Assembly (NCBI RefSeq): GCF_030464345.1
Contig: NZ_VCYH01000001.1
Coordinates: forward strand, 434,001 to 498,000
DNA from: Methanoculleus frigidifontis
Lineage (GTDB): Archaea > Halobacteriota > Methanomicrobia > Methanomicrobiales > Methanoculleaceae
Length of the DNA stretch: 64,000 nt
Reading direction: 5' to 3'
The notes under the pieces are model-generated. The model was not told where the DNA came from, ran no database searches, and saw only the letters and a list, made by a program, of their open reading frames with translations. A program made the position numbers and the translations under genes. Positions 41,273-55,586 of this stretch are shown in pieces. The stretch's first letter is position 1. The number at the start of each line of letters is the position of its first letter.

Positions 41273-42250
41273 CTACCCCCGCCCCACTGCAATGCTGATC
41301 GCCGCCGTCCCGCCGTCTGCGGCCGGCAGGGCTATCCCGCCCGCCGGGCCGTGGGTGACCGTGGCGATATACCCGCCGTCATTTGTCCTGACGAGCGATC
41401 CCGTCTGACTCCCTTCGCCGAAATCGACGGAGGTGTCCCGGACCACCGCCCCGGACTCGTCGAGCAGGATGAGGTGCAGTTCCTCCCCATAATGGTACCA
41501 ACTGCCCGCTCCCTCGATCCGCATCGGGAACGCGGCGAAGGCGTAACCGCCGCCCGGCAGCCGGATCACCGGGGTGAAGGCATCCAGCGTCCGGCGACCG
41601 GCAGGCGTCCCGTCCGGCCCGAACGTGGCAACGACGGTCTCGAAGCTGCCGTCGTTCCCGAGCCGGATGACCTCGTAGACCACGCCGATCTCCCCTTTGG
41701 TCTCCCAGAGATCCGAGATGTCCCAGATGAGGGCACCATCTCCCTCGTCCACCGTCTGCTCCCAGAGCACGGCGCCGTCGGCGCCGATGCGGGTGACGAT
41801 GATGCTTCCGATGGCACGCTCCGCGACCAGGCGTCCGCCGGAGCCGTCGGGCAGCACCGTCTCCCACGACGCCGCGGTGTCCGGGCCGGTGAACGGCGCC
41901 AGCGTCCGGTTCCAGAGGAGCGAGCCGTTCGCATCGAGCATCGCCGCGAAAGAACAGGGCGGGCTGAGGTTCTCACCGCCCGGCACCGTCTGGCCGGCGA
42001 TGGCGTAGCTGCCGTTCGGCATTGCCGTTACCGACGATGGGACTGTGTCGCGCCCGAAAGAGAGGCGGGTCTGCCACGCGATGCTCCCGTCCAGGTTGAA
42101 TTTGATCACCGAGGCGTCGCGGAAGGGTGGCTCTGGAAGATCCGCCGGAGCCGACGCGGTGAAGAGGCACCCGGAGATCATGACCGCTCCGATGAGCAGC
42201 CCGATGGCCGGCAGGGCGTATCGCATATATGTCTGCTTTCTCTCACGCAT
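41273..42250 (-). CDS. Lipoprotein with beta-propeller-like repeats
   Basis: A 325-residue protein. The N-terminus is an archaeal lipoprotein signal (lipobox MISGC at about residue 28). The rest has repeated blades of the type IKFNLDGSIAWQTRLSFG, MLDANGSLLWNRTLAPF and RIGADGAVLWEQTVDEG, alternating with DGGYIATV-like strands; these are PQQ/kelch-like propeller repeats. It is anchored outside the membrane and probably binds a ligand or partner. It is last in a minus-strand unit that begins at 45491. Related propellers occur at 50645-52348 and 53906-55471. Confidence 0.8.
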   Translation of the reverse strand: MRERKQTYMRYALPAIGLLIGAVMISGCLFTASAPADLPEPPFRDASVIKFNLDGSIAWQTRLSFGRDTVPSSVTAMPNGSYAIAGQTVPGGENLSPPCSFAAMLDANGSLLWNRTLAPFTGPDTAASWETVLPDGSGGRLVAERAIGSIIVTRIGADGAVLWEQTVDEGDGALIWDISDLWETKGEIGVVYEVIRLGNDGSFETVVATFGPDGTPAGRRTLDAFTPVIRLPGGGYAFAAFPMRIEGAGSWYHYGEELHLILLDESGAVVRDTSVDFGEGSQTGSLVRTNDGGYIATVTHGPAGGIALPAADGGTAAISIAVGRG

Positions 42251-42268
42251 AGAAATAGCCTCCTTTTT

Positions 42269-44158
42269 TCACCCGGAGACGGCCGCCGGCGGCGCGGGCG
42301 ACCGGTGCGGCACGGACCGCACCCACGGGTAGTAGTGAACCTCTCCGCTGGGCGGCGGGGCGGCGGAGAGGAAGACCGTATACCCGCTGCCGTCCGGGTC
42401 GACCACGCTGAACCATTCGTAGGGCGGAGCAGTCGCATTCGCCGGAACCCGGACTTCCCCGTCGCCGACGTATCTGCCGTCGACGTACACGCTCGCCCCT
42501 TCGTCGCGGGGGTGAATGACGTACCAGCCTGCATCGTCTCCGATCGCATCAGGCGGCGGTTCCGTCACGATATTCTGCGGAAAGAGGTCGATCGTCTCTC
42601 CCGGTTCCGGCACGGCGGTGATGCAGCCGGTATAAGCTGCAGACCCCTCGCTCCGGATGGAGTAGCGCGTAACGAGAGGGGCTGCGGGGTCCATCTCGAG
42701 AGCGAGCGACGTCCCGTCGATCGTTCCCTGATACTCACCGTCGAACCGGACCTCCGCTCCGTCGGCGTTGTACCAGTGTACCACGTAGCGGCCGGCGGGC
42801 TGCACGCCCATCGGTACACTTCCGGATGCATTGGCAACGGAGACGAGCGTCGTCCTCCCGGTCTCCCGGTCGTGCACGAAGACGTCCGCATACCCGTTCG
42901 TGTCGCCCTCCACCAGATTGCTGGCCTCCGAGACGAACGTGACGTACCGGCCGTCGGCGGAGATGTCCGGAGATCCGGACGTGCCGTTTCCCGGTGTGCG
43001 GTCGGAGGCGACGGAGACGAGCGTGGTCGATCCGGTCTGCATGTCATAGACGAAGACATCCTCTCTCCGGTTGGCATCGCCGGCCGTCAGCGAGGCGTCG
43101 GATGAGAATGCAACGAAGCGGCCGTCCGCCGAGACTGCCGGTGCCCGCGACCATCCGCTCGCATGCGTACCCGGGGGGTAATCGGTGATCCTCGTGGTGC
43201 GCCCGGATGCCCGGTCGCGGACGAAGATGTCGACAGGGGGAGAGGTTCCGGGAGGATTCTCTTCGGCAAACGACCGAAACACGATACGGCTTCCATCGCT
43301 TGAGATTGCCGGAGAGACGGACGGACCTATCAGCTGCACTCCTGCAGGAGAGTGCGAGACGAGCGATGTCTCGCCGGTCTCCCGGTCGTGCAGGAAGACG
43401 TCCGTCTCACCGTTCGCATCGCCGAACGCGAGATTGTCGGCACACGATGCGAATACCACCCACCGCCCGTCCCCGGAGATCCATGAGGGGTATGACTCGC
43501 CGTTTCCCTGCATGCCGTCCGATGCCGTCGAGACCCTCCCTGTCTCACCGGTCTCGCGGTCGTGGACGAAGACGTCGACCACCCCGTTCGTGTCCCCCGG
43601 AACCAGATTGTCGGCCCACGACGAGAAGGTGACGAAGCGGCCGCCCGCAGAGATCACCGGATCGATCGACCGGCTGTTGCCCCCCGTGCCGTCGGAAGCC
43701 CTTGAGATCAGTTCCGCTTCCCCCGTCACCCGGTCAACGACGCAGACCTGGTGCGACTGGTTGCCCGCCTCCATACTATACGGGTTCTTCGGCAGCGGCG
43801 CGATCGCCTCGAACGCGATGTACCGCCCGTCGCTGGAGAGGGAGGGGTACGTGAAGCTCGAGTACTCCTCCCGCAGGTCGGTCGTGTTCACGATGCTGAA
43901 CGTCTCGCCGCTCTCCCGGTCGTGGAGGAAGATGTCACCGGGCGATCGCACCCGCCAGAGCGTGGGGATATACTCGCCTGCCGTGACGAAGCCCACGAAC
44001 CTGCCGTCGGCGGAGATGGCAGGATACCCTGCCCAGCCATCGAACTGCGTTCCCTGCACGGCATCCTTCTGCGGCAGATCCCCGCTCCCGGTGCACCCGG
44101 CAGCGAGCAGCACGGCGATGAGCACCGCCGCAGGCCAAATGCCGCGATACGCTCTCAT
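42269..44158 (-). CDS. TolB/PD40-type beta-propeller lipoprotein
   Basis: A 629-residue protein. Lipoprotein signal with lipobox LLAAGC (Cys about 18). Seven or more PD40/WD40-like blades follow, each with the pattern ISADGRFVAFSS ... DVFVHDRETGETTLVS, covering about residues 40-430. The C-terminal 200 residues are beta-rich and carry a PEGA-like part (GASVYVDGRYVGDGEVRVP). It is extracellular and lipid-anchored; such propellers usually mediate protein or glycan contacts. The ATG overlaps the stop of the upstream lipoprotein gene by four bases, so the operon is translationally coupled. Confidence 0.85.
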   Translation of the reverse strand: MRAYRGIWPAAVLIAVLLAAGCTGSGDLPQKDAVQGTQFDGWAGYPAISADGRFVGFVTAGEYIPTLWRVRSPGDIFLHDRESGETFSIVNTTDLREEYSSFTYPSLSSDGRYIAFEAIAPLPKNPYSMEAGNQSHQVCVVDRVTGEAELISRASDGTGGNSRSIDPVISAGGRFVTFSSWADNLVPGDTNGVVDVFVHDRETGETGRVSTASDGMQGNGESYPSWISGDGRWVVFASCADNLAFGDANGETDVFLHDRETGETSLVSHSPAGVQLIGPSVSPAISSDGSRIVFRSFAEENPPGTSPPVDIFVRDRASGRTTRITDYPPGTHASGWSRAPAVSADGRFVAFSSDASLTAGDANRREDVFVYDMQTGSTTLVSVASDRTPGNGTSGSPDISADGRYVTFVSEASNLVEGDTNGYADVFVHDRETGRTTLVSVANASGSVPMGVQPAGRYVVHWYNADGAEVRFDGEYQGTIDGTSLALEMDPAAPLVTRYSIRSEGSAAYTGCITAVPEPGETIDLFPQNIVTEPPPDAIGDDAGWYVIHPRDEGASVYVDGRYVGDGEVRVPANATAPPYEWFSVVDPDGSGYTVFLSAAPPPSGEVHYYPWVRSVPHRSPAPPAAVSG

Positions 44159-44889
44159 CTCCCCTCCATCCGCACGACGGTCTCCGCCTGTGCAAGTTCG
44201 CCTGGCGTGAAGACCGTGAAGGACGACCGCCGGCCGGGAGGTTCGGGGACGGTCGATGCCCGGGAGACGACCCCCGTCGTGTCCCCTTCGGTCGTCACGA
44301 GGTCCGGGGCCGTCCGCCGGGCGACGATGATGGTGTACCATGGCCGGTCGGTCGAGAAGGCCACCTCGCTGAGCGGCTCGAGGGTTCCGTTCTCGAGCAG
44401 GAACAGGTCGCTGTACTCGGCCGTGTAGCGGAGGCTTCCCGACTGGCTTTCGGCGAAGATGGCAAGGCCTTCCTCCCCGAAGGCGATCTCGCGGAACGGC
44501 AGATCCTCGATCGCCGCGAGCACGGCGATCGGGTGGACGCCGGATGCGGGATGAATGGCCGTACCATCCTGCCAGATAGAGAGCTCTGCCTGCTCTGGAA
44601 CATACCTGGCCGAACAGAACTGTTCTGCTCCCTCTGCGACACCGAAATACTCCAGGAAGACCGATTCGAGCGAACCCTCAGCATCGAGATTGACCCGGCA
44701 CTGGTCGAGCACCACCGTCCGGTTGTCCACCCCGCTCGCCGCAACCGTCGCGTTCCAGACTGCTGCAAGGGGAGGGGCGCAGGTGTTCTGCGGTGCGGCA
44801 AACGCCACCGTCTGCACCCCTTCCCCGGGAACAGAGCACCCGGCGGCGAGCGCGGATGCGAGGAGCAGTATGCACATAAACCCTCTCAT
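44155..44889 (-). CDS. Lipoprotein, paralog of the 53178 protein
   Basis: A 244-residue lipoprotein (lipobox LAAGC). It shares several segments with the protein at 53178-53909: CAPPLAAVW vs CNPPLLEAW, HPIAVLAAIEDLPFREIAFGEEG vs HPLGVLTAVDDIPFGEISYGERG, and near the end FTPGELAQAETVV vs FAPREIGLAEKVV. Both also have a pair of Cys residues in the first third. The family is not recognised. The parallel positions, each beside a membrane protein and a propeller, suggest two versions of one surface complex. Confidence 0.75.
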   Translation of the reverse strand: MRGFMCILLLASALAAGCSVPGEGVQTVAFAAPQNTCAPPLAAVWNATVAASGVDNRTVVLDQCRVNLDAEGSLESVFLEYFGVAEGAEQFCSARYVPEQAELSIWQDGTAIHPASGVHPIAVLAAIEDLPFREIAFGEEGLAIFAESQSGSLRYTAEYSDLFLLENGTLEPLSEVAFSTDRPWYTIIVARRTAPDLVTTEGDTTGVVSRASTVPEPPGRRSSFTVFTPGELAQAETVVRMEGR

Positions 44890-44894
44890 CTCCG

Positions 44895-45491
44895 TCAGGC
44901 CTCCCGTACCGGAACGCCCGCCGGTCCTGCGGCGACGATCCGGACGAGCCCGCAGATGCCGGTCGCGACGATCACGAGTTCGAGGTAGAACCCGATATCG
45001 AGGAGCAGGGCAAAGACCGGATCGAACCCGAAGACCTCGACGGGCGGCACGGCAGTCATGATGCCGTCGAAGAGCCACCCGACGAACAGCGGCAGCCGGT
45101 CGGCGAGCAGCGGGGGAGGTCCGCCCGCCCAGGTTTCCGGGTTGACGAAAAGAGCGAAGATCAGCGGACCGGCCGCGAAGAACGTGCAGACCACTGCCGC
45201 GACCTTTCCCCGGAGCGATACGAGGCCTTCGATGATCGGCAGCGGTGTTGCAGCGGCTGCCACAATGATATCGAATATCACAGCGAACATGATGCCGATA
45301 GACCAGGGCGGCGCAGGGGCTCCGGCGGTGACGGCGGTGACGCCCATCATGATCCCGCACGCGGCAGCTGCGAGGAGCGGCGGCAGGACCCGTGAAGCCC
45401 GGTCGAGGAGGCGAAGGGAGAGAACGGCGAGCCCGACCGCACAGACTGTCATGGGGAGCATGGCGGCGGCGATATCAGGCAGCGTTGTCAC
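44895..45491 (-). CDS. Polytopic membrane protein of surface operon A
   Basis: A 198-residue protein with five hydrophobic helices and few charged residues, starting with GTG (GTG ACA ACG). The family is not recognised. It is first in the minus-strand unit 45491 to 41273 and ends five bases before the lipoprotein gene start. It may anchor or export the lipoproteins encoded downstream. The promoter motif described for this block lies about 50 bases before its start. Confidence 0.7.
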   Translation of the reverse strand: MTTLPDIAAAMLPMTVCAVGLAVLSLRLLDRASRVLPPLLAAAACGIMMGVTAVTAGAPAPPWSIGIMFAVIFDIIVAAAATPLPIIEGLVSLRGKVAAVVCTFFAAGPLIFALFVNPETWAGGPPPLLADRLPLFVGWLFDGIMTAVPPVEVFGFDPVFALLLDIGFYLELVIVATGICGLVRIVAAGPAGVPVREA

Positions 45492-45537
45492 TTCCAGGAC
45501 GGTCTCGACCTTTCATGTCAGTCCGTTTTGTTTCCTG

Positions 45538-45564
45538 CCATAAAGCATTTCTGTGCCAACTCTC
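45538..45564 (-). promoter_or_regulatory. Surface-regulon motif before operon A
   Basis: The minus strand reads GAGAGTTGGCACAGAAA followed by TGCTTTATGG. This shows the shared GGCACAGAAA core next to a TATA-like CTTTAT, about 50 bases upstream of the GTG start at 45491. Confidence 0.6.
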
Positions 45565-45613
45565 TTCCTAACCGGCTAAAGAGACCGGGGCGGACGCTGC
45601 AATCGGCGGTGCA

Positions 45614-46327
45614 TCAGCCTGCGAGGTGCTTCTGCACCAGACCTGCCGAATCGCTGGCGATCGCGTAGGTAGCACCGCGCCCATTCCGGTCGACCCGCAC
45701 GATCCCGTCGGCAGCGAGACGCCGCATGTGCCAGGAGACCGACGGACCGGTGATGCCGAGCTCCTCTGCGATCTCCTTTCGTGATCCGGCGGGTGCCTGC
45801 AGAAGCATCTCCAGGATCGCACGCTCCGTCCGGTTCCGGAGATGTACGAGGATCGTTCGTTCGCGCTCTCCGATGGTGCCGTGGTTCTCAAAGTAGCGGG
45901 TGCAGCCGCCGGCCGTATGGGAGACGATCTTCCCCTCCCGCTCGAGCACGGCGAGGTGATAGTGCAGGGTTCCCGTGTTGATGCCGGTCGCACGGTGCAG
46001 CCCGCTGAAGTGAATGCCCGGGTTGTCCCTGATCTGCTCGAAGAGCGTGCGGCGGGTGGCGTGGTCGAGGAGACGCTTGCGTTCGAGAAGTTTGTACCCG
46101 ACGAAGAGCCAGAGCGGCGTGGTAAAGAGGAACAGGATGACGATCGGGACCCGGTCCGCAAGGTCGGGGGAGACCGACGCGGCGGCGTGCCACAGCAGAT
46201 AGCGCAGCCCGAGCTGCCAGTGCGGCACCGGTTCGCCGTCCACTGCGGGCGGGGGCATATCGTATGCGCCTTTGAAGAGACAGATGCAGACGAGGACGAT
46301 CGCCGCCCGCTTTGAGAGTACCCGCAT
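45614..46327 (-). CDS. Membrane-anchored double winged-helix regulator A
   Basis: A 237-residue protein. An N-terminal signal-like helix (residues 6-20), a short extracellular loop, and a second TM helix (about 60-80) place the rest inside the cell. Two winged-helix domains follow: TRRTLFEQIRDNPGIHFSGLH followed by RATGINTGTLHYHLAVLEREGKI, then ERAILEMLLQAPAGSRKEIAEELGITGP followed by SVSWHMRRLAADGIV. The layout is that of a one-component membrane-bound transcription factor sensing an outside signal. The paralog is at 55681-56448. The start has GAGGTATGG just before it. It is divergent from the secreted protein at 46489. Confidence 0.82.
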   Translation of the reverse strand: MRVLSKRAAIVLVCICLFKGAYDMPPPAVDGEPVPHWQLGLRYLLWHAAASVSPDLADRVPIVILFLFTTPLWLFVGYKLLERKRLLDHATRRTLFEQIRDNPGIHFSGLHRATGINTGTLHYHLAVLEREGKIVSHTAGGCTRYFENHGTIGERERTILVHLRNRTERAILEMLLQAPAGSRKEIAEELGITGPSVSWHMRRLAADGIVRVDRNGRGATYAIASDSAGLVQKHLAG

Positions 46328-46368
46328 GTTCCATACCTCCTCAGCCTGTTCGAGAGGTTGTCTGGACA

Positions 46369-46442
46369 CCATGTAAGGTTTGTGTACCGATCGTCTACGC
46401 ATCCGGCGATCGGTAGATGATCGGCACAGAAGAGGTTTATCC
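46369..46442. promoter_or_regulatory. Divergent surface-regulon motifs between regulator A and a secreted protein gene
   Basis: Two oppositely oriented copies. Minus strand 46398-46369: GTAGACGATCGGTACACAAA followed by CCTTACATGG, toward regulator A. Plus strand 46413-46442: GTAGATGATCGGCACAGAAG followed by AGGTTTATCC, toward the 46489 gene. The outer arms CCGATCGTCTAC and GTAGATGATCGG form an inverted repeat across the centre. Regulator A may control its own gene here. Confidence 0.65.
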
Positions 46443-46488
46443 GCAGGTGTCGCGATCTCGATTGCAATCGGATTGAACGGTGAATCAC

Positions 46489-47313
46489 ATGAACGGAACA
46501 TGGTATGCAGCCGCACTGGTATGTGCGGCCGTGATTGTCGGCATTTGTATTGCCTCCGCACCTCTTCAACCGAGTGCCGGGTTTTCGGCCGCCGCCGAAG
46601 GTGCCCGACCGCCCGGCCAGGAGATCCCTCCCATCATTGTGAAGGGGTATCCGTACTCGCTATCGGGGGAAGGCGGCGGAGCGGAAACGGTTGTAGTATG
46701 GTTGATCGGACGAAACTGCTTCGAGCAAACCGTCGTGGATGCCGGGGACGGCGGGTTGTTTTCGTTCGCCCTGCCGGCGGAGCGGACGGCCGGACTCGAG
46801 AGCGGTCCGTATTCTCTCATCGTCCAGAACCCCGGAGCGGACGGCGTCTTCGATCCCGGCGCCGGTGCAGCCGTCCGCGTGATCGGGAACCGGAGCACCG
46901 CTTCTGTGGACTCCCTGTCAGCCGTTGCGGGCGAATTCGTGGCGGTTTTCGAGAGTTCAGAGATCGACGATACGGTGACGGCCTATAGGTTCCTCCTCGA
47001 AGAGCCCTGGATCCGGGTCGACGGCGCTGAAGGCTGCCTGCTCCCGGACGTCCGCGCCGGCGTTCGGATGACCGTCTCCGGAACGACGAACCTGCCCGCA
47101 GGCGAGCTGTTGACCGCCGATTTCAGCCGGGTCGAACCGCGCCGTGACGGCCTGAAGGTGGTGGCGCTGACCGTCTCCGGGGGCGATCCCTACAACGCCT
47201 GGTCGCTTGAGACCGATACCGGGGAGTTCGAACCAGGGGAGTATTTCCTTACCGTGGGGCGGAGCCGGCCCGGGGCGATGACGGTCGCCTTCACGGTCAC
47301 GGGTGACCGATAG
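46489..47313 (+). CDS. Secreted beta-rich protein, possibly DUF3821-like
   Basis: A 274-residue protein with a signal peptide (residues 1-28). It has at least two beta-sandwich-like regions: IIVKGYPYSLSGEGGGAETVVVWLIGRN, where a Gly/Tyr-containing strand precedes a nucleophile-free loop, and a second region beginning AGVRMTVSGTTNLPAGELLTADF. The GTTNLPAG stretch recalls the DUF3821-type domain common in Methanomicrobiales surface proteins. There is no C-terminal anchor. A GTG three codons upstream is an alternative start. The gene has a regulon-motif promoter about 50 bases upstream. Confidence 0.72.
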   Translation: MNGTWYAAALVCAAVIVGICIASAPLQPSAGFSAAAEGARPPGQEIPPIIVKGYPYSLSGEGGGAETVVVWLIGRNCFEQTVVDAGDGGLFSFALPAERTAGLESGPYSLIVQNPGADGVFDPGAGAAVRVIGNRSTASVDSLSAVAGEFVAVFESSEIDDTVTAYRFLLEEPWIRVDGAEGCLLPDVRAGVRMTVSGTTNLPAGELLTADFSRVEPRRDGLKVVALTVSGGDPYNAWSLETDTGEFEPGEYFLTVGRSRPGAMTVAFTVTGDR

Positions 47314-47339
47314 ACGATCCGTACAGAAAACGTTTATCC
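47311..47339 (+). promoter_or_regulatory. Surface-regulon motif before the 47361 gene
   Basis: TAGACGATCCGTACAGAAAA followed by CGTTTATCC. It is the clearest copy of the motif. It begins inside the stop codon of the preceding gene, and its TTTAT lies 24 bases before the next ATG, which fits a leaderless transcript. Confidence 0.65.
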
Positions 47340-47360
47340 GGCGCGGTCCTGATCCCCTGT

Positions 47361-48698
47361 ATGGATGCGGAGACGACAGGAAGGAGCGTATGCACCATCG
47401 TCCTGCTCGCTCTGCTCGCGGCGCCGGCAGCAGCCGCGGACGCGTACGAAGATGCACCGGGAAGCAGCGTTCTGACCATACCGGTCTTCGGCCCTCTTCC
47501 CTGGGTCTGGCCGATTGATGTCGACGCGAACCGCGTCGTCTGGGTCGAAGACGAGGGGAGCCACGTGGGAAACTCTTCCGTCCGTGTCTGCACCCTCACC
47601 ACCGGCGAGGAGAGAACGGTCGCGGAGAGCCTGCAGGAGACCGCGTACTGCAGCGGCCGCCGGGCCGTCACGCCGGGAGTATCCGGCGATCTGGTCGTCT
47701 GGACCGAGAACCTGGGCGCCGCCGTCCACGTATTCGACCTGGCCTCCGGTGGAGAGCGGATTCTGTTGCGTGGAGAGGTATTTCGGGGGCGCAGCATCAC
47801 CCAGAATGACGGATCGCAGAGGACGGTCTGGGAAGCCGTAGCCTACGAAGGCCCGGTATACCTCTCCGGCCCCGAGGATATGCAGGGGTGGGACACGATA
47901 CACGGGGACGTTTTCTTCGACTTCCCGGCCGTCGACGGTGACCGGATCGTCTGGGTAGAGGGGAACGGCGCCGACAGGGGTTCGAGTGATATTTACCTCT
48001 ACAACCTCACCTCAGAAGAACTCGTTCCGGTCTGCACGGCTCCCGGAGAACAGACCCGCCCGAAGATCTCCGGCGACCGGGTTGTCTGGCAGGATATGCG
48101 GAGCGGGAACTGGGACATTTACTCCTACGATCTCACGACCGGCGAAGAGCGGGCAGTCTGCACCGATCCCGCCCGGCAGATCCATCCCGATATCGACGGC
48201 GACGATATCGTCTGGCAGGACCGGCGCAACGCCTACCTCGGAAGAGACTGGGACAATTCGGACGACATCTACCACTTCGACCTCGCCGCCGGAACCGAGC
48301 GGCCACTGGCGACGGGGCGGGAGGAACAGCATGACCCCGCCGTTGCCGGCGGCCGGGTGGTCTGGGTGGAGAGCGTCCGGTGGAAGGACGATCCGCTGCA
48401 CGAGGGGAACCGGCTCCTGGTGTACGATCTTGTCACGGGCTCGACCCGGTGCATCCCGGCAGAAGGCGGCACCGTCATGGATCCGGTCATCTCCGGCAGC
48501 CATGTCGCTTTCTGCGTGATCCGCGACACTGGGGAATCCTGGAGCGTCTCCGTATTCGCCCTCGACGAGGAACGCCCCAACCGGACTTTGGCCGCCCCCG
48601 CAGCTACTGCGGAACCGGTGCCGACCGCCGCGCCGGGGTACGCGGCTCTTTCGGCGATTGCCGCCCTTGCGGCGCATGCGTGCCGCCGGCGACAGTGA
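47361..48698 (+). CDS. Secreted beta-propeller protein with PGF-like C-terminal signal
   Basis: A 445-residue protein. Signal peptide to about residue 26 (PAAAADAYE). Seven propeller blades follow the pattern ISGDRVVWQDMRSGNWDIYSYDLTTGEE (DxxVVWxD strands at regular spacing of about 45 residues). The C-terminus is TAAPGYAALSAIAALAAH plus CRRRQ, a variant of the archaeal PGF-CTERM sorting signal (PGF-type motif, helix, basic end). Such signals are processed by archaeosortase and may link the protein to a lipid. The promoter motif is directly upstream. Confidence 0.82.
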   Translation: MDAETTGRSVCTIVLLALLAAPAAAADAYEDAPGSSVLTIPVFGPLPWVWPIDVDANRVVWVEDEGSHVGNSSVRVCTLTTGEERTVAESLQETAYCSGRRAVTPGVSGDLVVWTENLGAAVHVFDLASGGERILLRGEVFRGRSITQNDGSQRTVWEAVAYEGPVYLSGPEDMQGWDTIHGDVFFDFPAVDGDRIVWVEGNGADRGSSDIYLYNLTSEELVPVCTAPGEQTRPKISGDRVVWQDMRSGNWDIYSYDLTTGEERAVCTDPARQIHPDIDGDDIVWQDRRNAYLGRDWDNSDDIYHFDLAAGTERPLATGREEQHDPAVAGGRVVWVESVRWKDDPLHEGNRLLVYDLVTGSTRCIPAEGGTVMDPVISGSHVAFCVIRDTGESWSVSVFALDEERPNRTLAAPAATAEPVPTAAPGYAALSAIAALAAHACRRRQ

Positions 48699-48746
48699 GC
48701 GACGGCACACGTCAGGCTCCCGCTTTGCAAGCAGGCCGACAGGAAG

Positions 48747-48773
48747 AGAGATCGTACAGAAACCTTTTGTCCC
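48747..48773 (+). promoter_or_regulatory. Surface-regulon motif before the 48802 gene
   Basis: GAGATCGTACAGAAACC followed by TTTTGTCCC. The GATCGTACAGAAA core is intact while the TATA-like part is weaker. The ATG at 48802 is about 35 bases downstream. Confidence 0.55.
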
Positions 48774-48801
48774 GGCGGCCTGAATTTACCTCTGAAGGAG
48801 C

Positions 48802-49820
48802 ATGAAGCGGTTTGCAGGTGCAGTCATTCTCATAGTGCTCGTCGGCGCGATCTTCGCGGCCGGGTGCACATCCCCACGGTCCCACCCGGGGTACGGAGCG
48901 TGGACCTGGCCATCCCCGACGGCCAGCCGGCATCGAACATCACCGAGGTCGTGGTGAGCCCGTACCTCGACGCCGTATACGCGGAAGTGAGCGACGTTGC
49001 GCTGCAGATCAGCGCAAAAGACTACGGCACGGATATCGTCGCGGCCGAGACGACCGTTCCCGTCGGCAACCTGACGCCTGGAAAGACCGGGAAAGAGCCG
49101 GTATCCCTCCGGCTCGAGAACGGCAGAAAGTACGACGTCTGGGTGATGGTCTGGCAGGGCGGCCGGATGCAGGAGAAAGGGTCGGTGGACGTCTCCCTCC
49201 CGGACCGGACGGTTCCGGAGCGGAAACTTGCCTACTCGCTGCTCACCATCACCGCCGTCGACGTCATGACCCCCGATCTCGATGCCGACCCGATCACCCT
49301 GGATATCATCACCGGGATTACGAACAGCGGCCGGAGCCAGTCCGGCGATCTCGCGATGGAGGTCCGGCTCGTCAACCTCCAGACCGGGATCACGGCTGTC
49401 CGCGAGTCCCGCCCGCTCGGGATGGTCGCTGCAAATACGGCGACAGAGAAGCAGGTGAGCGTGACGGTGCCGAATGGCTACGACTATACGGTCACCGTCC
49501 GGCTCACCGAAGACGGCGCACCATTTGCGTCCAGCACCGGCCGGGTCACCTTCGCCCCGCAGCCGCAGGTGGTCGTCGCCGGCGGGCAGTCGGGGGTTGT
49601 GCCGGACAGCCTTCTCTCCCATACGGATGGGCTGTCCTTCGGCCTGACAGTCCCGACCCCGGCACTGACGGCGCCCTGCCCGTCGACGGCGCAGATCGGG
49701 CAGTTCCGCGTCCAGAGCGGCGGCGCACCGGTGCCGACCACAGCCGCACCCGGGTTTCCGGCAGCAGCAGCCATCGGGACGCTCGCGGCCGCTCTTCTCC
49801 TGCTGCGCCGGAGGAAATAG
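48802..49820 (+). pseudogene. Secreted lipoprotein/PGF-type protein with early frameshift
   Basis: The start (RBS GAAGGAG) gives a lipoprotein signal MKRFAGAVILIVLVGAIF followed by AAGCTSP, in one frame. At about 48869-48873, in a C-run, the frame must change by one missing base to continue as TVPPGVRSVDLAIPDGQPAS and through a 315-residue beta-rich secreted protein. The C-terminus is a typical PGF-CTERM-like signal (AAPGFPAAAAIGTLAAALLLLRRRK). With five C instead of four the gene would be a 339-residue intact protein. As sequenced, the mature part lacks a start and export signal. The family of the main domain (SDVALQISAKDYGTDIVA ...) is not recognised. Confidence 0.75.
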
Positions 49821-49822
49821 GG

Positions 49823-50068
49823 ATGGTGTTCGACGGGCCGACAGCGCGGAGGGTCTACCTCATCGCCGCATCCGCCATCTCGCTGATCGTCGTGCTCTTC
49901 GGGGCGGCAAACCTCATCGCCATCCTGATCGAGGTCTTCGCTTACCCGCCGCCCCAGCCCTACCCGGTTCCGCAGTACTATCCGGGTCTGCCGGGAAGCG
50001 CGGCGCAGGTGGCCGTCGGGCTGGTGGTCTGGGGCTACCACTGGGCGAAGCTGCAGGCGGAGCGGTGA
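49823..50068 (+). CDS. Small membrane protein with Pro/Tyr-rich segment
   Basis: An 81-residue protein. A TM helix (about residues 12-38) is followed by YPPPQPYPVPQYYPG and a second short hydrophobic stretch. It starts two bases after the stop of the PGF-type protein and is probably cotranscribed with it. The family is not recognised. Confidence 0.55.
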   Translation: MVFDGPTARRVYLIAASAISLIVVLFGAANLIAILIEVFAYPPPQPYPVPQYYPGLPGSAAQVAVGLVVWGYHWAKLQAER

Positions 50069-50081
50069 CGGCTGGACGCCA

Positions 50082-50648
50082 CTACCGGCACCGCACTCCC
50101 GCCCAGATGAGGAGCAGCCCGACGAGCGGCATCAGGTATGCAATATAGAGGATGCCGACGACTTCGTTCAGACCGCCCGTGACGACCGGGTTTGCGGGGT
50201 CGGCGGCGAAAACGACGGCCTGGTGGTAGATGAGATACCCGGACGCGATACTGACGAGCGCGGTAACGGCCACCGGTCCGCGAATGGTGTGTCTGCACCG
50301 CTCCGGAAACGTGTACAGGAACAGAGCGGCGGTAGGCACAAGAAGCGCCAGAAGGAGCGTCTCAAACTGCCCCGGGTGGATGCCGGTCAACGCCGCCGCA
50401 CCGCCCCGCAGAACGAGGAGCGCTATCACCACGGCGAGCGGGATGCCCCGGAGCCACCGGGTGGATTCGCCTTTGATAGTCCTGAGGAACTGCGCCGCGC
50501 CGATCAGGGAGGCTATCGAGAGTGCGGATACGACGACCGACGGGCCGAAGACGCCGCCTGATGCGAGCGCCACCGCAACCGTCCCCCAGAGAAAGAAGAA
50601 GACCGCGCTCGTTGCAACGAGCAGGAGGGCAAACGGCCCGGCCTTCAT
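50082..50648 (-). CDS. Five-to-six-helix membrane protein
   Basis: A 188-residue hydrophobic protein with about six TM helices (starts MKAGPFALLLVATSAVFFFL). The family is not recognised. It is last in the minus-strand unit that starts at 53101. The ATG at 50648 overlaps the stop of the propeller gene (ATGA); an ATG two codons earlier is possible. Like the membrane protein at 44895, it accompanies secreted propeller proteins and may be a membrane partner. Confidence 0.65.
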   Translation of the reverse strand: MKAGPFALLLVATSAVFFFLWGTVAVALASGGVFGPSVVVSALSIASLIGAAQFLRTIKGESTRWLRGIPLAVVIALLVLRGGAAALTGIHPGQFETLLLALLVPTAALFLYTFPERCRHTIRGPVAVTALVSIASGYLIYHQAVVFAADPANPVVTGGLNEVVGILYIAYLMPLVGLLLIWAGVRCR

Positions 50649-52348
50649 CGCCATTTCGCTCCTCTGCGGCGGATCAGCAATATCCCGAAGCAGCAGGCAA
50701 CCGCCGCTGCGACCGCCCCAAACCCGGGGGCACGGCCGGGCATCACCGTCCACCCATGCTCTCCAAACGACCGGGTCGTCCCGGCAAGGATATATCCACC
50801 GTCTGATGTCGGCGCAAGAGCAGAGACAGCATCCGTCGCGTCCCCGCCAAGCGAGATCGCCGAGGTCACGTTTCCGGTGTGATCGGCCAGCACCAGCCAC
50901 CCGTCGTCCGGCCCGCCGGTGTAGGCCGTGCCGGTGAATGCGTATCTCCCGGGAGACGGCGCCGCAGCTGCCGTGACCACGAAGAGGCCGTCGGGCATAT
51001 CCGGTATCCGGCTCCAGACGGTATCACCGCCCCCACCGATCAGGACGAGACGGGTCTTTGGAAGATCGCTTTCGGGGAGGACGGCTCCGCCGATGCTGAG
51101 GTAGCCGACGAGACCACCGCCCGGTACCCGGAGCAGCACAGTGGGGGCGCTGCAGTCCGTATCGTCAAGCGTCCTCGTCCAGAGCGCCTCACCCGATGCG
51201 TCGGTCTTGATCAGCCGGAGCGGCACGGCTCCGGAACTTCCCGCTCTCCAGGGATTCTTCACCGCCACCAGGTAGCCGCCGTCGACGGGCGTCCGGATAA
51301 GATCGTCCACCATCCCGGCATCGTTGCCTCCGATACACCTGTTCCACTCCTCTTCCCCGTCCCGGTCGACCTTGAGCAGCCAGGCGTTGTCGGTTTGGGT
51401 CGCACCGGTTGTCCTCTTCCCACCGAGGATGAAACCGCCGTCACCGGTCTGGATGACCGTCGAGAAGACGAGGTACTCGTCGTCCTCCCCGAACGTCCGG
51501 CTCCAGATTTCCCCGCCGTCGGATCCGACCCTGAGTATCCAGGCGTCGGCAGTGTCTTTCTCAGGTGTCCACCCGGTGTTCCCGGCGACGACGTAGCCGC
51601 CGTCGGAGGTCCGGATCATGTCGAGCACGTTCTCCCAGTCCGGTCCGCCGTAGGTCTTCCTCCAGAGTTCGGTGCCGTCGGTGTCCGTCCGGATAAGGAG
51701 GACGTCATGCTCGCCGCTTCTCCGGTGATTGTTGGCAGCGATCAGGTATCCGCCGTCACCGGCCTGCACCACCGAGGCAACGTCGACGTTATCTCCTGCA
51801 CGGTAGGTCCGGTTCCAGACCTCGGTGCCCTGCGCGTCCGTTCTGATCAGCCAGACGGACTGCTCGTACCAGGTCACCGGCGTACCGGTGGGCGCCGGAG
51901 TCGTGTACGCTTCAGCCATTGCCCGGGAGATCTCGGCGAGCCGGGCGTTCTCCCTCCCGGTCAGGCACATATCCGGGCCTGCTGCCGGATCAAACGAGAT
52001 CCTGGTTACCGAACCGCCGTCCTCTGTGGCTACGGTCTCGTGCAGCACCGGATACTTCCGCCAGATCTCCCGCAGTTCCTCCTTCATCGCCGCTTTCTCT
52101 GCATCCGGGCGGAGAGACCGGTCGACGGAGGCAAGCAGGTTCTCCTGCTCCTCCGCGGCCCCGACGAGCATCACCCAGTACGGCGAAGCCTGCTTAACGG
52201 CATCGTCGATCTCTATCAGGTCGACGGGCAGTTCTCCCGGCGCCGGTTCGGTGAGCGTGATCGGGCGGGGAGTATCGGCGGCGGCTGCCGGGAGAACGAC
52301 CATGCCGGCCAGCAGAAGAACGCACGCACAACAGAGAAGGTACTTCAT
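50645..52348 (-). CDS. Secreted beta-propeller protein with PGF-CTERM-like signal
   Basis: A 567-residue protein. Signal peptide (residues 1-23, ending LPAAAA). A helical region (about 45-130) precedes a propeller of repeated blades such as DGGYLIAANNHRRSGEHDVLLIRTDTD and DGTELWRKTYGGPDWENVLDMIRTS. The C-terminus APGFGAVAAAVACCFGILLIRRRG matches the PGF-CTERM plan. It is extracellular and likely processed by an archaeosortase. The blades resemble those of the 41273 and 53906 proteins. It follows the 52358 gene by nine bases, with its own weak RBS (GGCAATCCG). Confidence 0.82.
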   Translation of the reverse strand: MKYLLCCACVLLLAGMVVLPAAAADTPRPITLTEPAPGELPVDLIEIDDAVKQASPYWVMLVGAAEEQENLLASVDRSLRPDAEKAAMKEELREIWRKYPVLHETVATEDGGSVTRISFDPAAGPDMCLTGRENARLAEISRAMAEAYTTPAPTGTPVTWYEQSVWLIRTDAQGTEVWNRTYRAGDNVDVASVVQAGDGGYLIAANNHRRSGEHDVLLIRTDTDGTELWRKTYGGPDWENVLDMIRTSDGGYVVAGNTGWTPEKDTADAWILRVGSDGGEIWSRTFGEDDEYLVFSTVIQTGDGGFILGGKRTTGATQTDNAWLLKVDRDGEEEWNRCIGGNDAGMVDDLIRTPVDGGYLVAVKNPWRAGSSGAVPLRLIKTDASGEALWTRTLDDTDCSAPTVLLRVPGGGLVGYLSIGGAVLPESDLPKTRLVLIGGGGDTVWSRIPDMPDGLFVVTAAAAPSPGRYAFTGTAYTGGPDDGWLVLADHTGNVTSAISLGGDATDAVSALAPTSDGGYILAGTTRSFGEHGWTVMPGRAPGFGAVAAAVACCFGILLIRRRGAKWR

Positions 52349-52357
52349 CGGATTGCC

Positions 52358-53101
52358 TCATTCCCTCAGTCTCCGACGCGACCGGGCGGCAAGCAGCCCG
52401 CCCGAAACCGCAATCGCAGCGATCCAGGCACCAAACCCGGGCACTGCTTTCTCCTCCGGCTCCGGCTCCAGCGTAAGCTCGAGCCGGTTTGTGGTGTTTT
52501 CAAAGACGACCTCGCGGTGGAGGGTGATATATCCGTCCCGCTCGACCGTGATAGTCTGTGCGTAGCCGAACGCGTTCTGTATCAGGTAGCCGCCGTCGCC
52601 GTCGGTCTCGGCCGTCACGTGTTTCGAAGTGCCGCTCAGCGGGAGGACGGAAGCAAACGTCACCGTCGCACCAGGGATCCGGTGCCCGTCGGTATCGGTC
52701 ACCTTTCCGATGACAGTGATGAACGGCGGCGGGGGAATGTCGACATTGACGTAGACGGGCAGGACCGCCTCCGACGTCTTGCCCCGGGTGTCGGTGAGCG
52801 TGACGGTGATCGTCTCGTTCCCTTCAGCGACCGGGACGGTGCACGAGAACTCCGCCGCGTCTCTGCACGACACCTCGCCGACGCTGCTCCTGACTACCAG
52901 ACTCTGTATCCCGGTCGAGGCGTTGGCCATGCCGACGACCGTGGCCTGCGGCGGGACGGCGTTGCTCCAGATCGTCTCATACTGCTTCGGCGACGTGACG
53001 GAGAGCATCATCCTCGTCTCGGTCGGTTCGTCCCCGGCCGCTGCCGGGACCGTGGCCACCGCCAGCAGCAGGAGGATGAGAATACAGGGAACCGTTCGCA
53101 T
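52358..53101 (-). CDS. Secreted protein with carboxypeptidase-regulatory-like domain and PGF signal
   Basis: A 247-residue protein. Signal peptide to about residue 22. An Ig-like beta region contains two Cys (GEVSCRDAAEFSCTVPVAEG, probably a disulfide), then a CarboxypepD_reg-like fold (FITVIGKVTDTDGHRIPGATVTF, GGYLIQNAFGYAQTITVERDGY), then the PGF-CTERM-like AVPGFGAWIAAIAVSGGLL plus RSRRR. The start at 53101 is preferred over the open upstream frame, which crosses the promoter motif. It heads the unit 53101 to 50082. Confidence 0.82.
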   Translation of the reverse strand: MRTVPCILILLLLAVATVPAAAGDEPTETRMMLSVTSPKQYETIWSNAVPPQATVVGMANASTGIQSLVVRSSVGEVSCRDAAEFSCTVPVAEGNETITVTLTDTRGKTSEAVLPVYVNVDIPPPPFITVIGKVTDTDGHRIPGATVTFASVLPLSGTSKHVTAETDGDGGYLIQNAFGYAQTITVERDGYITLHREVVFENTTNRLELTLEPEPEEKAVPGFGAWIAAIAVSGGLLAARSRRRLRE

Positions 53102-53135
53102 TGTTCTTTTCTCCGAAAGAGCAATTGGAGGGACG

Positions 53136-53166
53136 GGTTTATACGTTTTCTGTGCGATGCGTCTTC
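53136..53166 (-). promoter_or_regulatory. Surface-regulon motif before the 52358 gene
   Basis: The minus strand reads GAAGACGCATCGCACAGAAA followed by ACGTATAAACC. The core and TATA are well conserved. The TATA is about 40 bases before the ATG at 53101. Confidence 0.65.
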
Positions 53167-53177
53167 GCATCCGCCGG

Positions 53178-53909
53178 TCACGCGTAGACGACCTTCTCCG
53201 CAAGCCCGATCTCCCGCGGGGCGAAGACGACCCGCGCCCGGGGGTCTTCATCGATCCGGGTCGCCTTCAGGTTCTCGTTCTGCTGCTTGCCGTTCGCCTC
53301 GATGATCAGCGGCTCCCGGATAGGGTAGATCTCGATGGTGTGCCAGACCTCGGCGGTGGCGAAGGATATCTCCCGCAGGGGATGGAACGTGCCGTTCTCG
53401 ATGGCGTAGATGTTCCCGTAGGTGTCATCGTAGGTCCGGTTCTCCTCGTGGTGAAAGACTTTCAGGTTCATCCCGCGCTCACCGTAGGAGATCTCCCCGA
53501 ACGGGATATCATCGACGGCGGTGAGGACTCCGAGCGGGTGCGGGCGGGGCGGCCGGTAATCGAGCCGCTGGGACGAGAGGTAGGCGCTCCCATTCCGGAG
53601 AACGAAGGCGGAGTGTACCCACGGTTCTCCCTCCATATCGGCGAAGAAGTGGAACTGGAGGTAGGTGACCGATCCGTTGGCGTCAAAGCCCATATCGAGC
53701 ATCGCACCTCTCGCCGTCTCGTTCTCGAACGGTATCCCGCTCGCCATCGCCTCCCAGGCCTCGAGAAGCGGGGGGTTGCACCGCTCTACCGGGAGAAGCG
53801 GTACGGTAGCGTAGTCTATCGTCTCGTAGCCGGGCGGGACGTAGAGGGCACGGCCGAGCACGAGCGCCACTGCGATGAGAATCCCGACCGCAAGCCACCG
53901 GTCCTTCAC
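53178..53909 (-). CDS. Signal-anchored protein, paralog of the 44155 lipoprotein
   Basis: A 243-residue protein with an N-terminal hydrophobic helix (WLAVGILIAVALVLGRALYV) but no lipobox Cys, unlike its paralog. Shared segments with the 44155 lipoprotein include CNPPLLEAW, HPLGVLTAVDDIPFGEISYGERG and FAPREIGLAEKVV. Its ATG overlaps the stop of the upstream membrane-propeller gene (ATGA). The family is not recognised. Membrane anchoring by helix instead of lipid is the main difference between the two versions. Confidence 0.75.
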   Translation of the reverse strand: MKDRWLAVGILIAVALVLGRALYVPPGYETIDYATVPLLPVERCNPPLLEAWEAMASGIPFENETARGAMLDMGFDANGSVTYLQFHFFADMEGEPWVHSAFVLRNGSAYLSSQRLDYRPPRPHPLGVLTAVDDIPFGEISYGERGMNLKVFHHEENRTYDDTYGNIYAIENGTFHPLREISFATAEVWHTIEIYPIREPLIIEANGKQQNENLKATRIDEDPRARVVFAPREIGLAEKVVYA

Positions 53910-55471
53910 GCGGCCACGCTCCCGGCGACGAGATAGCCGCCGTCCGCCGTGCCGATACCACGGATCGCGTGCCGATTCAGATCGATCGCCCGCTCCTGCC
54001 GCCAGACCCCGGTGCCGGTGACGTCGTGGCCGGTGAGGGTGATCCCCGCATCCCCGGTCACGATCGAAAGGTAGCCGCCCGACGACGGGACCACGACACC
54101 GCCGTCGTCCCCGACGGCACGGGATCCCGTCACGTCGCCGTGACTGTCCAGGGAAAACGCATAGCCCTGGTGAGCCGGCACAACGCTGCCCATGAGATCC
54201 TCCGGGAACGTCGTCGACCGGTAGAGGACACCGAACCGTCCCGGCGCCGTCTCCCAGACACCCAGGAGTTCGTCAAGCCCCTCGCTCCCGAAGTCCCGCT
54301 TCCAGAGGACGGTGCCGTTTGCGTCCAGGCGGACCGCCTGCAGGTACGTCTCGAAGTGATCGCCGGCAAAGACGCCTTTCGCCTCCGTAACGACGAGCAC
54401 GCCTCCCTCAGAGGCGGGGTAGACCGGGTGATACCCGATGCCGCCCGCGGTAGCAAGCGAGGTCTTCCAGATCCGGGTGCCGTTGTCGCTATAACAGGCG
54501 GTCGTATCGCCCCAGACCGCGACATACCGGTCGTCGGCAAGAGCAATCAGGGAGACGGGGGTCATTCCCTGACTCTCGTCGGCGAGCGACCGCCGCCAGA
54601 GCACCGCTCCCCCGGTATCGATGCGAACGATCTCAGGGGTCTCTACGGCCATCAGATACCCTTCGTCAGGCATCGGGACGAGTGCGGTCACCCGCCCGAA
54701 CCCGGTCTCCACTGCCGATTGCCGGCGGATGCTCCCGTTCTCGTCGAGAACCACGATATGCACCGTGTTCTCCTCCTGACCGGGCTCCGTGACCGCGAGG
54801 GCATAACCGCCGTGGTGCTCGGCAAGGACGTCAGGCCGATCGTAGGCATCGAGATCAATCCGTGCCTCCCACACGATGTCGCCGGCGGCCGAGACTTTGA
54901 GAAGCCGGATGTCGGTCTCCGCCGCGGGCGCACCCCCGGAGTAGGGCACAGGGGGGATGACGCCTGCTGCGATTCCGGCAGCAGCCAGGAGTGGCGGGGC
55001 GGCGATGACCAGGACGGCGACCGCCATAACCGGGAGGACGCTGCGGTATCCTTCTGTCCCGTCTCTCCCGAGGAGCGAGCCGATGAGCCCCCCGAGTGCG
55101 GCGATCAGCGCTGCGCCGATCACAAAGAGGAGATCCCGAAACCACATCCTGCAGAGCGATCCGATGAGGTAGGCGGGATCGGGAATGAAGAGGAGGGTGC
55201 GGGCGGTTATCATGGCGACTGCGCCTGCCAGGGCGGCGGAGAGGATTTGTGTGTCCCGCCCCTCCGTTCTGGTGCAGTACGAGGCGAAGAATCCCGCAAC
55301 GAGGATAACCAGCATCAGCGAGACGTACGTCTGTGTGATCCCGATTCCCGATAGGTTCTGGTTGTAGACAAACGCGCCGTTCCAGGTGCGTGAAAGCGCC
55401 TCCACCACCGCGAGGAAGGCTACTCCGGCGAGAAATCCAGTCCCGACCACGGTACCGGCGGTGCTTCGCAT
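53906..55471 (-). CDS. Membrane protein fused to an extracellular beta-propeller
   Basis: A 521-residue protein. Five TM helices lie in residues 1-170 (including FLAGVAFLAVVEALS, VSLMLVILVAGFFASYC, VLPVMAVAVLVIAAPPLLAA). They are followed by an extracellular propeller of about 340 residues with blades such as LLKVSAAGDIVWEARIDLDAY, VLDENGSIRRQSAVETG and RLDANGTVLWKRDFG. In operon A a separate membrane protein and a separate propeller lipoprotein occur, so this may be the fused equivalent. Met 55471 (GGAATG context) is chosen; GTG 55495 is also possible. It is divergent from regulator B. Confidence 0.8.
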   Translation of the reverse strand: MRSTAGTVVGTGFLAGVAFLAVVEALSRTWNGAFVYNQNLSGIGITQTYVSLMLVILVAGFFASYCTRTEGRDTQILSAALAGAVAMITARTLLFIPDPAYLIGSLCRMWFRDLLFVIGAALIAALGGLIGSLLGRDGTEGYRSVLPVMAVAVLVIAAPPLLAAAGIAAGVIPPVPYSGGAPAAETDIRLLKVSAAGDIVWEARIDLDAYDRPDVLAEHHGGYALAVTEPGQEENTVHIVVLDENGSIRRQSAVETGFGRVTALVPMPDEGYLMAVETPEIVRIDTGGAVLWRRSLADESQGMTPVSLIALADDRYVAVWGDTTACYSDNGTRIWKTSLATAGGIGYHPVYPASEGGVLVVTEAKGVFAGDHFETYLQAVRLDANGTVLWKRDFGSEGLDELLGVWETAPGRFGVLYRSTTFPEDLMGSVVPAHQGYAFSLDSHGDVTGSRAVGDDGGVVVPSSGGYLSIVTGDAGITLTGHDVTGTGVWRQERAIDLNRHAIRGIGTADGGYLVAGSVAA

Positions 55472-55552
55472 TCCAGGCCGGGAACCTTCAGGCACGGGGC
55501 ACCCCCGCAGGCGACCCTGCCCCCATCCGCATCATAGAGGGAACTGGGACGC

Positions 55553-55586
55553 GGGATTATATACTGTTTCTGTCCCGATCGTCTAC
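55553..55586 (-). promoter_or_regulatory. Surface-regulon motif between operon B and regulator B
   Basis: The minus strand reads GTAGACGATCGGGACAGAAA followed by CAGTATATAATCCC. It has the best TATA of the set. It lies between the divergent operon B (start 55471) and regulator B (start 55681), so it could influence both. Confidence 0.65.

Follow-up and report, generated by a model that had tools for sequence, protein, structure and literature searches.

What ties together the neighbouring surface-protein genes of the methanogen Methanoculleus frigidifontis (Archaea; Halobacteriota; Methanomicrobia; Methanomicrobiales; Methanoculleaceae), and which protein reads that tie? The window analysed here, 64,000 nucleotides (nt) of the forward strand (GCF_030464345.1, NZ_VCYH01000001.1, 434,001–498,000), contains a block of genes in which a preliminary description had proposed seven copies of a shared promoter motif. 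All seven sites are present, on the strands proposed (Table 1), and they are almost certainly copies of a conserved regulatory element. The reading for which we argue from sequence comparison, with a probability of roughly 0.6, is that the element belongs to a composite promoter activated by putatively membrane-anchored regulators with two winged helices each, of which the window encodes two (A and B), and that these would control a regulon of surface proteins.

The seven sites align without gaps over 28 nt as G[T/A/G]AGA-N8-ACAGAAA-N3-T[A/T]TA (consensus GTAGACGnnCGnCACAGAAAnnGTATATA). Within this, AGA-N8-ACAGAAA forms a near-invariant core; ACAGAAA, originally given as the rough reading of every site, is intact in five, whereas site 2 reads ACACAAA and site 3 ACAGAAG. 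The upstream part as first described, GTAGACGATC, is complete in sites 2 and 7, one substitution off in sites 3 and 4 and incomplete elsewhere, and the supposed gap of two or three bases before the TATA-like box is three nt, not two, once the alignment is in register. Among 124 sites examined, 107 have a listed TATA-like word, and the spacing is the same in all of them. As anticipated, ACAGAAA overlies the position of the transcription factor B (TFB) recognition element (BRE), with the TATA-like box following it, and the conserved part extends about 13 nt further upstream than a BRE. The sites lie about 21–82 nt before the most likely start codons (gene starts were predicted by a codon-usage script), in keeping with the proposed 20–90 bases. 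Coverage of nearly every transcription unit also held: all units of 41273–55471 are headed by a site if close same-strand genes are taken as operons. In genus g5, many sites of an island type (L088, L089, L091, L122–L157) are flanked by an imperfect inverted repeat, with CGACGTG before and AACGTCG after the TATA box, and there the conserved stretch grows to about 45 nt.

The element is highly specific within its own 3.17-Mb genome (G000), all of which was covered by pattern and model searches. TAGACGATCGGTACAGAAA, allowing up to three mismatches, matches four times, always in the block, and its reversed control never. ACAGAAA-N2/3-TTTAT occurs four times (two in the block and two on contig C18), and AGA-N8-ACAGAAA nine times (five in the block, two on C18, one on C4 and one on C10) against three for the reversed control. 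A sequence model of the element returned eight matches at E ≤ 1, namely five block sites, one on C4 and two on C18. Because that model contains the genome's own sites, a matrix trained on relatives only, without any site of this genome, is the cleaner test: the seven sites scored 14.0–37.9 against a maximum of 15.1 in a background of 20 stretches (400 kb) from the same genome, with site 5 alone inside the background range (14.0) and the other six far above it. In 200 trials with column-permuted matrices, the block gave no match of 18 or more.

The regulon extends beyond the block: in this genome it takes in sites on C4 and C18, and a relative's genome may hold as many as 15 strict sites. The C4 match adjoins a third paralog of the regulators, and the two on C18 precede membrane-protein operons; all model matches in the genome fall in surface or membrane clusters rather than at housekeeping promoters. 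A generic BRE/TATA arrangement of this genome was rejected, ACAGAA being found in 0 of 30 exact-TATA promoters of other genes. Spread through coding DNA was likewise rejected, as only 16 of 155 site centres lie in predicted coding sequence where the DNA is 86% coding.

Among relatives, the strict pattern AGA-N8-ACAGAAA-N3-TWTA occurs 1–15 times per genome in M. frigidifontis and G005–G018 (112 sites), with no match to the reversed pattern in those genomes. The element is present in 15 of 19 genomes of the family, and the other four (G001–G004) carry no intact site. A slightly stricter pattern, run on 199 genomes of the class, had almost all its matches in genus g5 and the window's genome; to judge from the S_layer_MEMAR match (Table 1), g5 is probably Methanoculleus. 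Site-like sequences also stand beside regulators in G029 and G025, which belong to other families, and on contig L030 of a metagenome-assembled genome. Conservation is concentrated on the sites themselves. In a comparison of the window with nine relatives at the promoter orthologous to that of site 7, identity reaches 83% within the site, against 31% over the 70 nt before it and 59% over the 70 nt after it; the corresponding figures for site 6 are 76%, 36% and 45%. Of the outcomes that the preliminary description named as refuting (equal frequency at housekeeping promoters or in coding regions, no conservation at orthologous promoters), each was looked for and none occurred. The sister species (G001) retains a single degenerate site, which is orthologous in position to a C18 site and lies before a truncated operon. 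This remnant (L182:8698-9220 on G001:C2) combines the degenerate site with truncated pieces of the C18 operon, in a genome without dual winged-helix regulators.

The genes downstream share a cellular destination. When 109 strict sites were read in context, 101 lay no more than 200 nt ahead of a gene. Of the genes so placed, 95% encode an N-terminal hydrophobic signal or membrane segment, compared with 22% of 369 background genes, which bears out the description of the targets as secreted, lipid-anchored or membrane proteins. Likewise, 147 of 155 matrix sites are within 250 nt before a gene, as against 13% of random positions. The site on C4 precedes two secreted-protein genes related to genes of the block.

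Which protein might read these sites? The two paralogs named earlier as natural candidates for binding had been said to flank the block. Regulator B does, whereas regulator A lies inside it, with the four-gene operon of site 1 beyond. A, B and the C4 paralog score 62.2, 66.4 and 52.7 bits against Pfam PF24266 (HTH_HVO_0163_N; cut-off 31), and in each an HTH_24/HTH_20 match then follows. An AlphaFold2 model of B contains two winged helices, with a per-residue confidence (pLDDT) of 85–92 per 10-residue block over residues 101–240; fold searches gave generic winged-helix matches only, the nearest solved structures for one domain being ArsR-like folds.

Co-location points to these proteins as candidate readers. 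A dual winged-helix gene lies no more than 10 kb from 61 of the 112 strict sites, where uniform placement would predict 2.7, and one is present in 17 of 21 multi-site clusters; these figures are descriptive, because orthologous clusters are not independent. The four family genomes without intact sites also have no close regulator paralog. Site 2 precedes regulator A, a weaker second site on C4 stands 38 nt before the paralog there, and most orthologs of regulator B are divergent from a site. On this pattern of neighbourhood and shared absence, the dual winged-helix family is probably the cognate reader, with the MarR-family protein discussed below as its rival. The recognition helix NxGTLRYHL is commoner near sites, but the comparison does not discriminate: L090 and L198 have a near-identical helix but no strong site. 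Both of those loci hold dual winged-helix regulators next to a member of the 53178 family, and perhaps represent paralogs of other specificity. A 157-aa winged helix–turn–helix protein and an XRE-like protein were discarded as readers; they occur only in relatives' islands and are absent from the block, C4, the B loci and the orphan loci.

We therefore consider a mechanism in which the upstream element G[T/A/G]AGA-N8-AC is fused without a gap to AGAAA at the BRE position, with the TATA-like box exactly 3 nt on. Regulators A, B and the C4 paralog would be held in the membrane by their N-terminal hydrophobic segments and would probably sense the state of the envelope there; their cytoplasmic winged helices would bind the element and help TFB and the TATA-binding protein (TBP) to load on target promoters. 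It is from the anatomy of the proteins alone that we infer an envelope signal. As to the direction of the effect, we lean towards activation, because orientation and spacing to the TATA-like box are invariant. Published archaeal activators bind upstream of BRE/TATA (PMC5937170, PMC4706686, PMC10665913).

Several observations weigh against this reading. The membrane topology of the regulators is predicted from hydrophobic N-terminal segments in their sequences and from a long helix (residues 67–95) in the low-confidence part of the B model. Four multi-site clusters (G017 C1, G012 C1, G014 C3 and C18 of M. frigidifontis itself) have no dual winged-helix gene nearby. Conversely, 20 of 41 regulator paralogs lack a strict site within 12 kb, so other specificities must exist within the family. 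The genes of regulator B and its orthologs are not themselves preceded by a site. Finally, ACAGAAA covers the BRE position, where by analogy with TrmB a bound protein could block TFB (PMC4706686).

That last point leads to the possibility, which we consider somewhat unlikely, that the same regulators are repressors covering BRE and TATA, excluding TFB and TBP until an envelope signal releases them. The conserved ACAGAAA coincides with the DNA contacted by TFB, and TrmB does repress when it covers BRE and TATA (PMC4706686); the sites before regulator A and the C4 regulator would suit autorepression, and ArsR-like folds, the nearest structures for one domain, are mostly those of repressors. However, much of the conserved part lies upstream of the BRE, where archaeal activators are reported to bind (PMC5937170), and an operator would not need constant orientation and spacing to TATA.

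A different reader, with the dual winged-helix genes as mere cluster neighbours, is improbable. The candidate is a MarR-family protein encoded beside a Lon protease (G000:C18:10894-11313). Every motif-positive genome of the family that was tested has one close copy, 75–85% identical in the 14 relatives of the first set and 75–86% overall; the protein occurs in all four multi-site clusters without a dual winged-helix gene, a further point against the preferred reader, and in four genomes its gene is divergent from a strong site 116–147 nt away. Beyond the family, five genomes had pattern hits, and in three of them (G025, G044 and G089) the protein was found; the hit-free genomes tested have no close match. 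This comparison is biased, because G044, G062, G089 and G115 were chosen for their hits. Yet G001, whose sole site is degenerate, keeps the protein at 81% identity. Around the MarR gene itself, no site was seen in G001, G025, G044, G089 or G098, and no strict one in G006 or G016; the gene is missing from the window's block, from C4, from the nine B loci and from every orphan locus examined. Pattern hits without the MarR occur in G062 and G115, and in G029, which has no close MarR, a good site adjoins a dual winged-helix gene. The MarR–Lon pair itself (G000:C18:10894-13753, L072) adjoins motif clusters in many relatives and stands alone in others, and its locus is possibly a hot spot for the insertion of surface clusters.

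A specialized core promoter read by an alternative general factor, a TFB or TBP paralog, would fit an element that includes BRE and TATA at invariant spacing, but it is highly improbable: the 23 genomes surveyed, motif-bearing or not, carry one TFB gene apiece, which rules out a second TFB as the basis of the promoter class, and conservation continues upstream of the BRE. That the sites are meaningless copies carried along by duplicated promoter–gene blocks is scarcely credible, since although some targets are paralogs and both C18 promoters resemble one G001 stretch of about 80 nt, the target families are many and unrelated, the flanks diverged while 28 nt were kept, and the sister species has its degenerate site together with a truncated operon.

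The products of the block are listed in Table 1. Of the loci that encode members of the family of 53178 and 44155, 24 bear sites, and the only two others each contain a dual winged-helix gene; the 20 background stretches yielded no member. The DUF7490 gene has its signal peptide (MKRFAGAVILIVLVGAIFAAGC) and its body in different frames, and relatives have it intact (L129:6507-7511). In several relatives (L129:2589-6111, L166, L173; including G025, of another family) a site precedes genes for an ABC-2 exporter ATPase and permease; in L129 these are followed by a CARDB/NEW3-type secreted protein, with a DUF7490 lipoprotein nearby.

Table 1. Sites, regulators and candidate target genes in the window (positions count from the first nucleotide of the window).
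Feature	Position	Strand	Sequence, context or similarity	Score
Site 1	45540..45567	-	GAAGAGAGTTGGCACAGAAATGCTTTAT; heads four-gene operon 45491-41273	matrix 35.4; relatives-only 28.5
Site 2	46371..46398	-	GTAGACGATCGGTACACAAACCTTACAT; regulator A's own promoter, head-to-head with site 3	matrix 25.2; relatives-only 24.8
Site 3	46413..46440	+	GTAGATGATCGGCACAGAAGAGGTTTAT; precedes S-layer-domain gene 46489	matrix 36.1; relatives-only 35.9
Site 4	47310..47337	+	ATAGACGATCCGTACAGAAAACGTTTAT; precedes beta-propeller gene 47361	matrix 39.8; relatives-only 33.8
Site 5	48743..48770	+	GAAGAGAGATCGTACAGAAACCTTTTGT; precedes DUF7490 lipoprotein gene; weakest TATA of the seven	matrix 21.5; relatives-only 14.0
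Site 6	53139..53166	-	GAAGACGCATCGCACAGAAAACGTATAA; heads operon 53101-50082; kept at relatives' orthologous promoter	38.8
Site 7	55559..55586	-	GTAGACGATCGGGACAGAAACAGTATAT; heads operon 55471-53178, divergent from regulator B	39.7
Regulator A, 237 aa	45614..46327	-	predicted N-terminal membrane segments, HTH_HVO_0163_N (PF24266) and second winged helix (PF13412)	
Regulator B, 255 aa	55681..56448	+	predicted signal/transmembrane segment, long helix 67-95, two winged helices (Pfam and AlphaFold2)	
Lipoprotein	41273..42250	-	weak PQQ-propeller match; site 1 operon	
Lipoprotein	42269..44158	-	WD40-like PD40 propeller and weak PEGA match; site 1 operon	
Lipoprotein	44155..44889	-	same family as 53178-53909 (28.6% identity over 220 aa)	
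Membrane protein	44895..45491	-	first gene of site 1 operon; family found only in site-bearing loci	
Secreted protein	46489..47313	+	stretch similar to S-layer glycoprotein family S_layer_MEMAR (NCBIfam NF041431), far below family cut-off	E 1.8e-24
Secreted beta-propeller repeat protein	47361..48698	+	TIGR04275 beta_prop_Msarc, above cut-off	
DUF7490 lipoprotein	48802..49820	+	apparent frameshift	
Small membrane protein	49823..50068	+	downstream in site 5 unit	
Membrane protein	50082..50654	-	end of site 6 operon	
Secreted propeller-like protein	50645..52348	-	site 6 operon; own site in several relatives	
Secreted CarboxypepD_reg-domain protein	52358..53101	-	first gene of site 6 operon	
Secreted protein	53178..53909	-	second gene of site 7 operon; family recurs beside regulators	
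Membrane protein, PQQ-like propeller	53906..55471	-	first gene of site 7 operon	

The control of the cell surface in methanogens is very poorly understood. A purely sequence-defined element now joins dozens of unannotated surface proteins, and the ABC exporter of relatives, into one regulon with a proposed reader; it also supplies a probe ready for bench use. The sister species, with its single degenerate site before a truncated operon and no regulators, offers a natural case of co-decay. A more far-reaching idea, which we hold to be unlikely, is that this is an archaeal envelope-response system in which membrane-anchored one-component regulators sense the surface and switch on a dedicated class of promoters for surface proteins and exporters. 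If it is true, winged helices and a composite promoter of upstream activating sequence (UAS), BRE and TATA box would do the work of bacterial extracytoplasmic function (ECF) sigma factors and their membrane anti-sigma factors.

A search of the open-access literature, subscription papers lying outside it, turned up no account of the motif, of the regulon or of what the HVO_0163 family does, and to that extent the regulon is, as first proposed, undescribed. For PF24266, in which A, B and the C4 paralog are placed above the gathering score, neither a function nor a binding site was found in open-access papers, HVO_0163 being named only in an acetylome study; a family for which that literature yielded no functional paper thus gains a candidate regulon. 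Regulons with BRE-adjacent elements are already known in archaea, and what is new is the extent, the fused UAS–BRE–TATA layout and putatively membrane-anchored tandem winged helices as candidate readers.

Four known systems frame the comparison. TrmB and TrmBL1 of Pyrococcus furiosus share the dependence of their effect on position relative to BRE/TATA (PMC4706686), but TrmBL1 recognizes a palindromic site, TATCAC-N5-GTGATA, and the regulon concerns sugars. ArnR and ArnR1 of Sulfolobus are paralogous transmembrane helix–turn–helix (HTH) proteins, as the candidates here are predicted to be, and they control a surface structure (PMC13286277); they differ in having an N-terminal HTH, phosphorylation by kinases and archaellum genes as targets, whereas here two winged helices follow the predicted membrane segments. 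TFB-RF1 of P. furiosus binds just upstream of BRE/TATA and activates weak-BRE promoters by recruiting TFB (PMC5937170), through a palindromic TCTG-N5-CAGA and at two known targets, as opposed to an asymmetric element with more than 100 sites across genomes. With TFB-RF1 and EarA the element shares its layout, a conserved sequence directly upstream of BRE/TATA at fixed spacing. EarA of Methanococcus and Pyrococcus is a winged-helix activator that serves a surface structure through a short motif at fixed distance upstream of the BRE and is thought to aid TFB at a weak BRE (PMC10665913, PMC13286277). The sites do not belong to its regulon: the consensus differs, and no archaellum gene is among the targets inspected. 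EarA is described as acting on the archaellum operon through A(C/G)(C/G)TACA(T/C), nine nt upstream of the BRE, whereas the present element merges with the BRE position and heads many units, and its candidate regulators combine predicted membrane segments with two winged helices.

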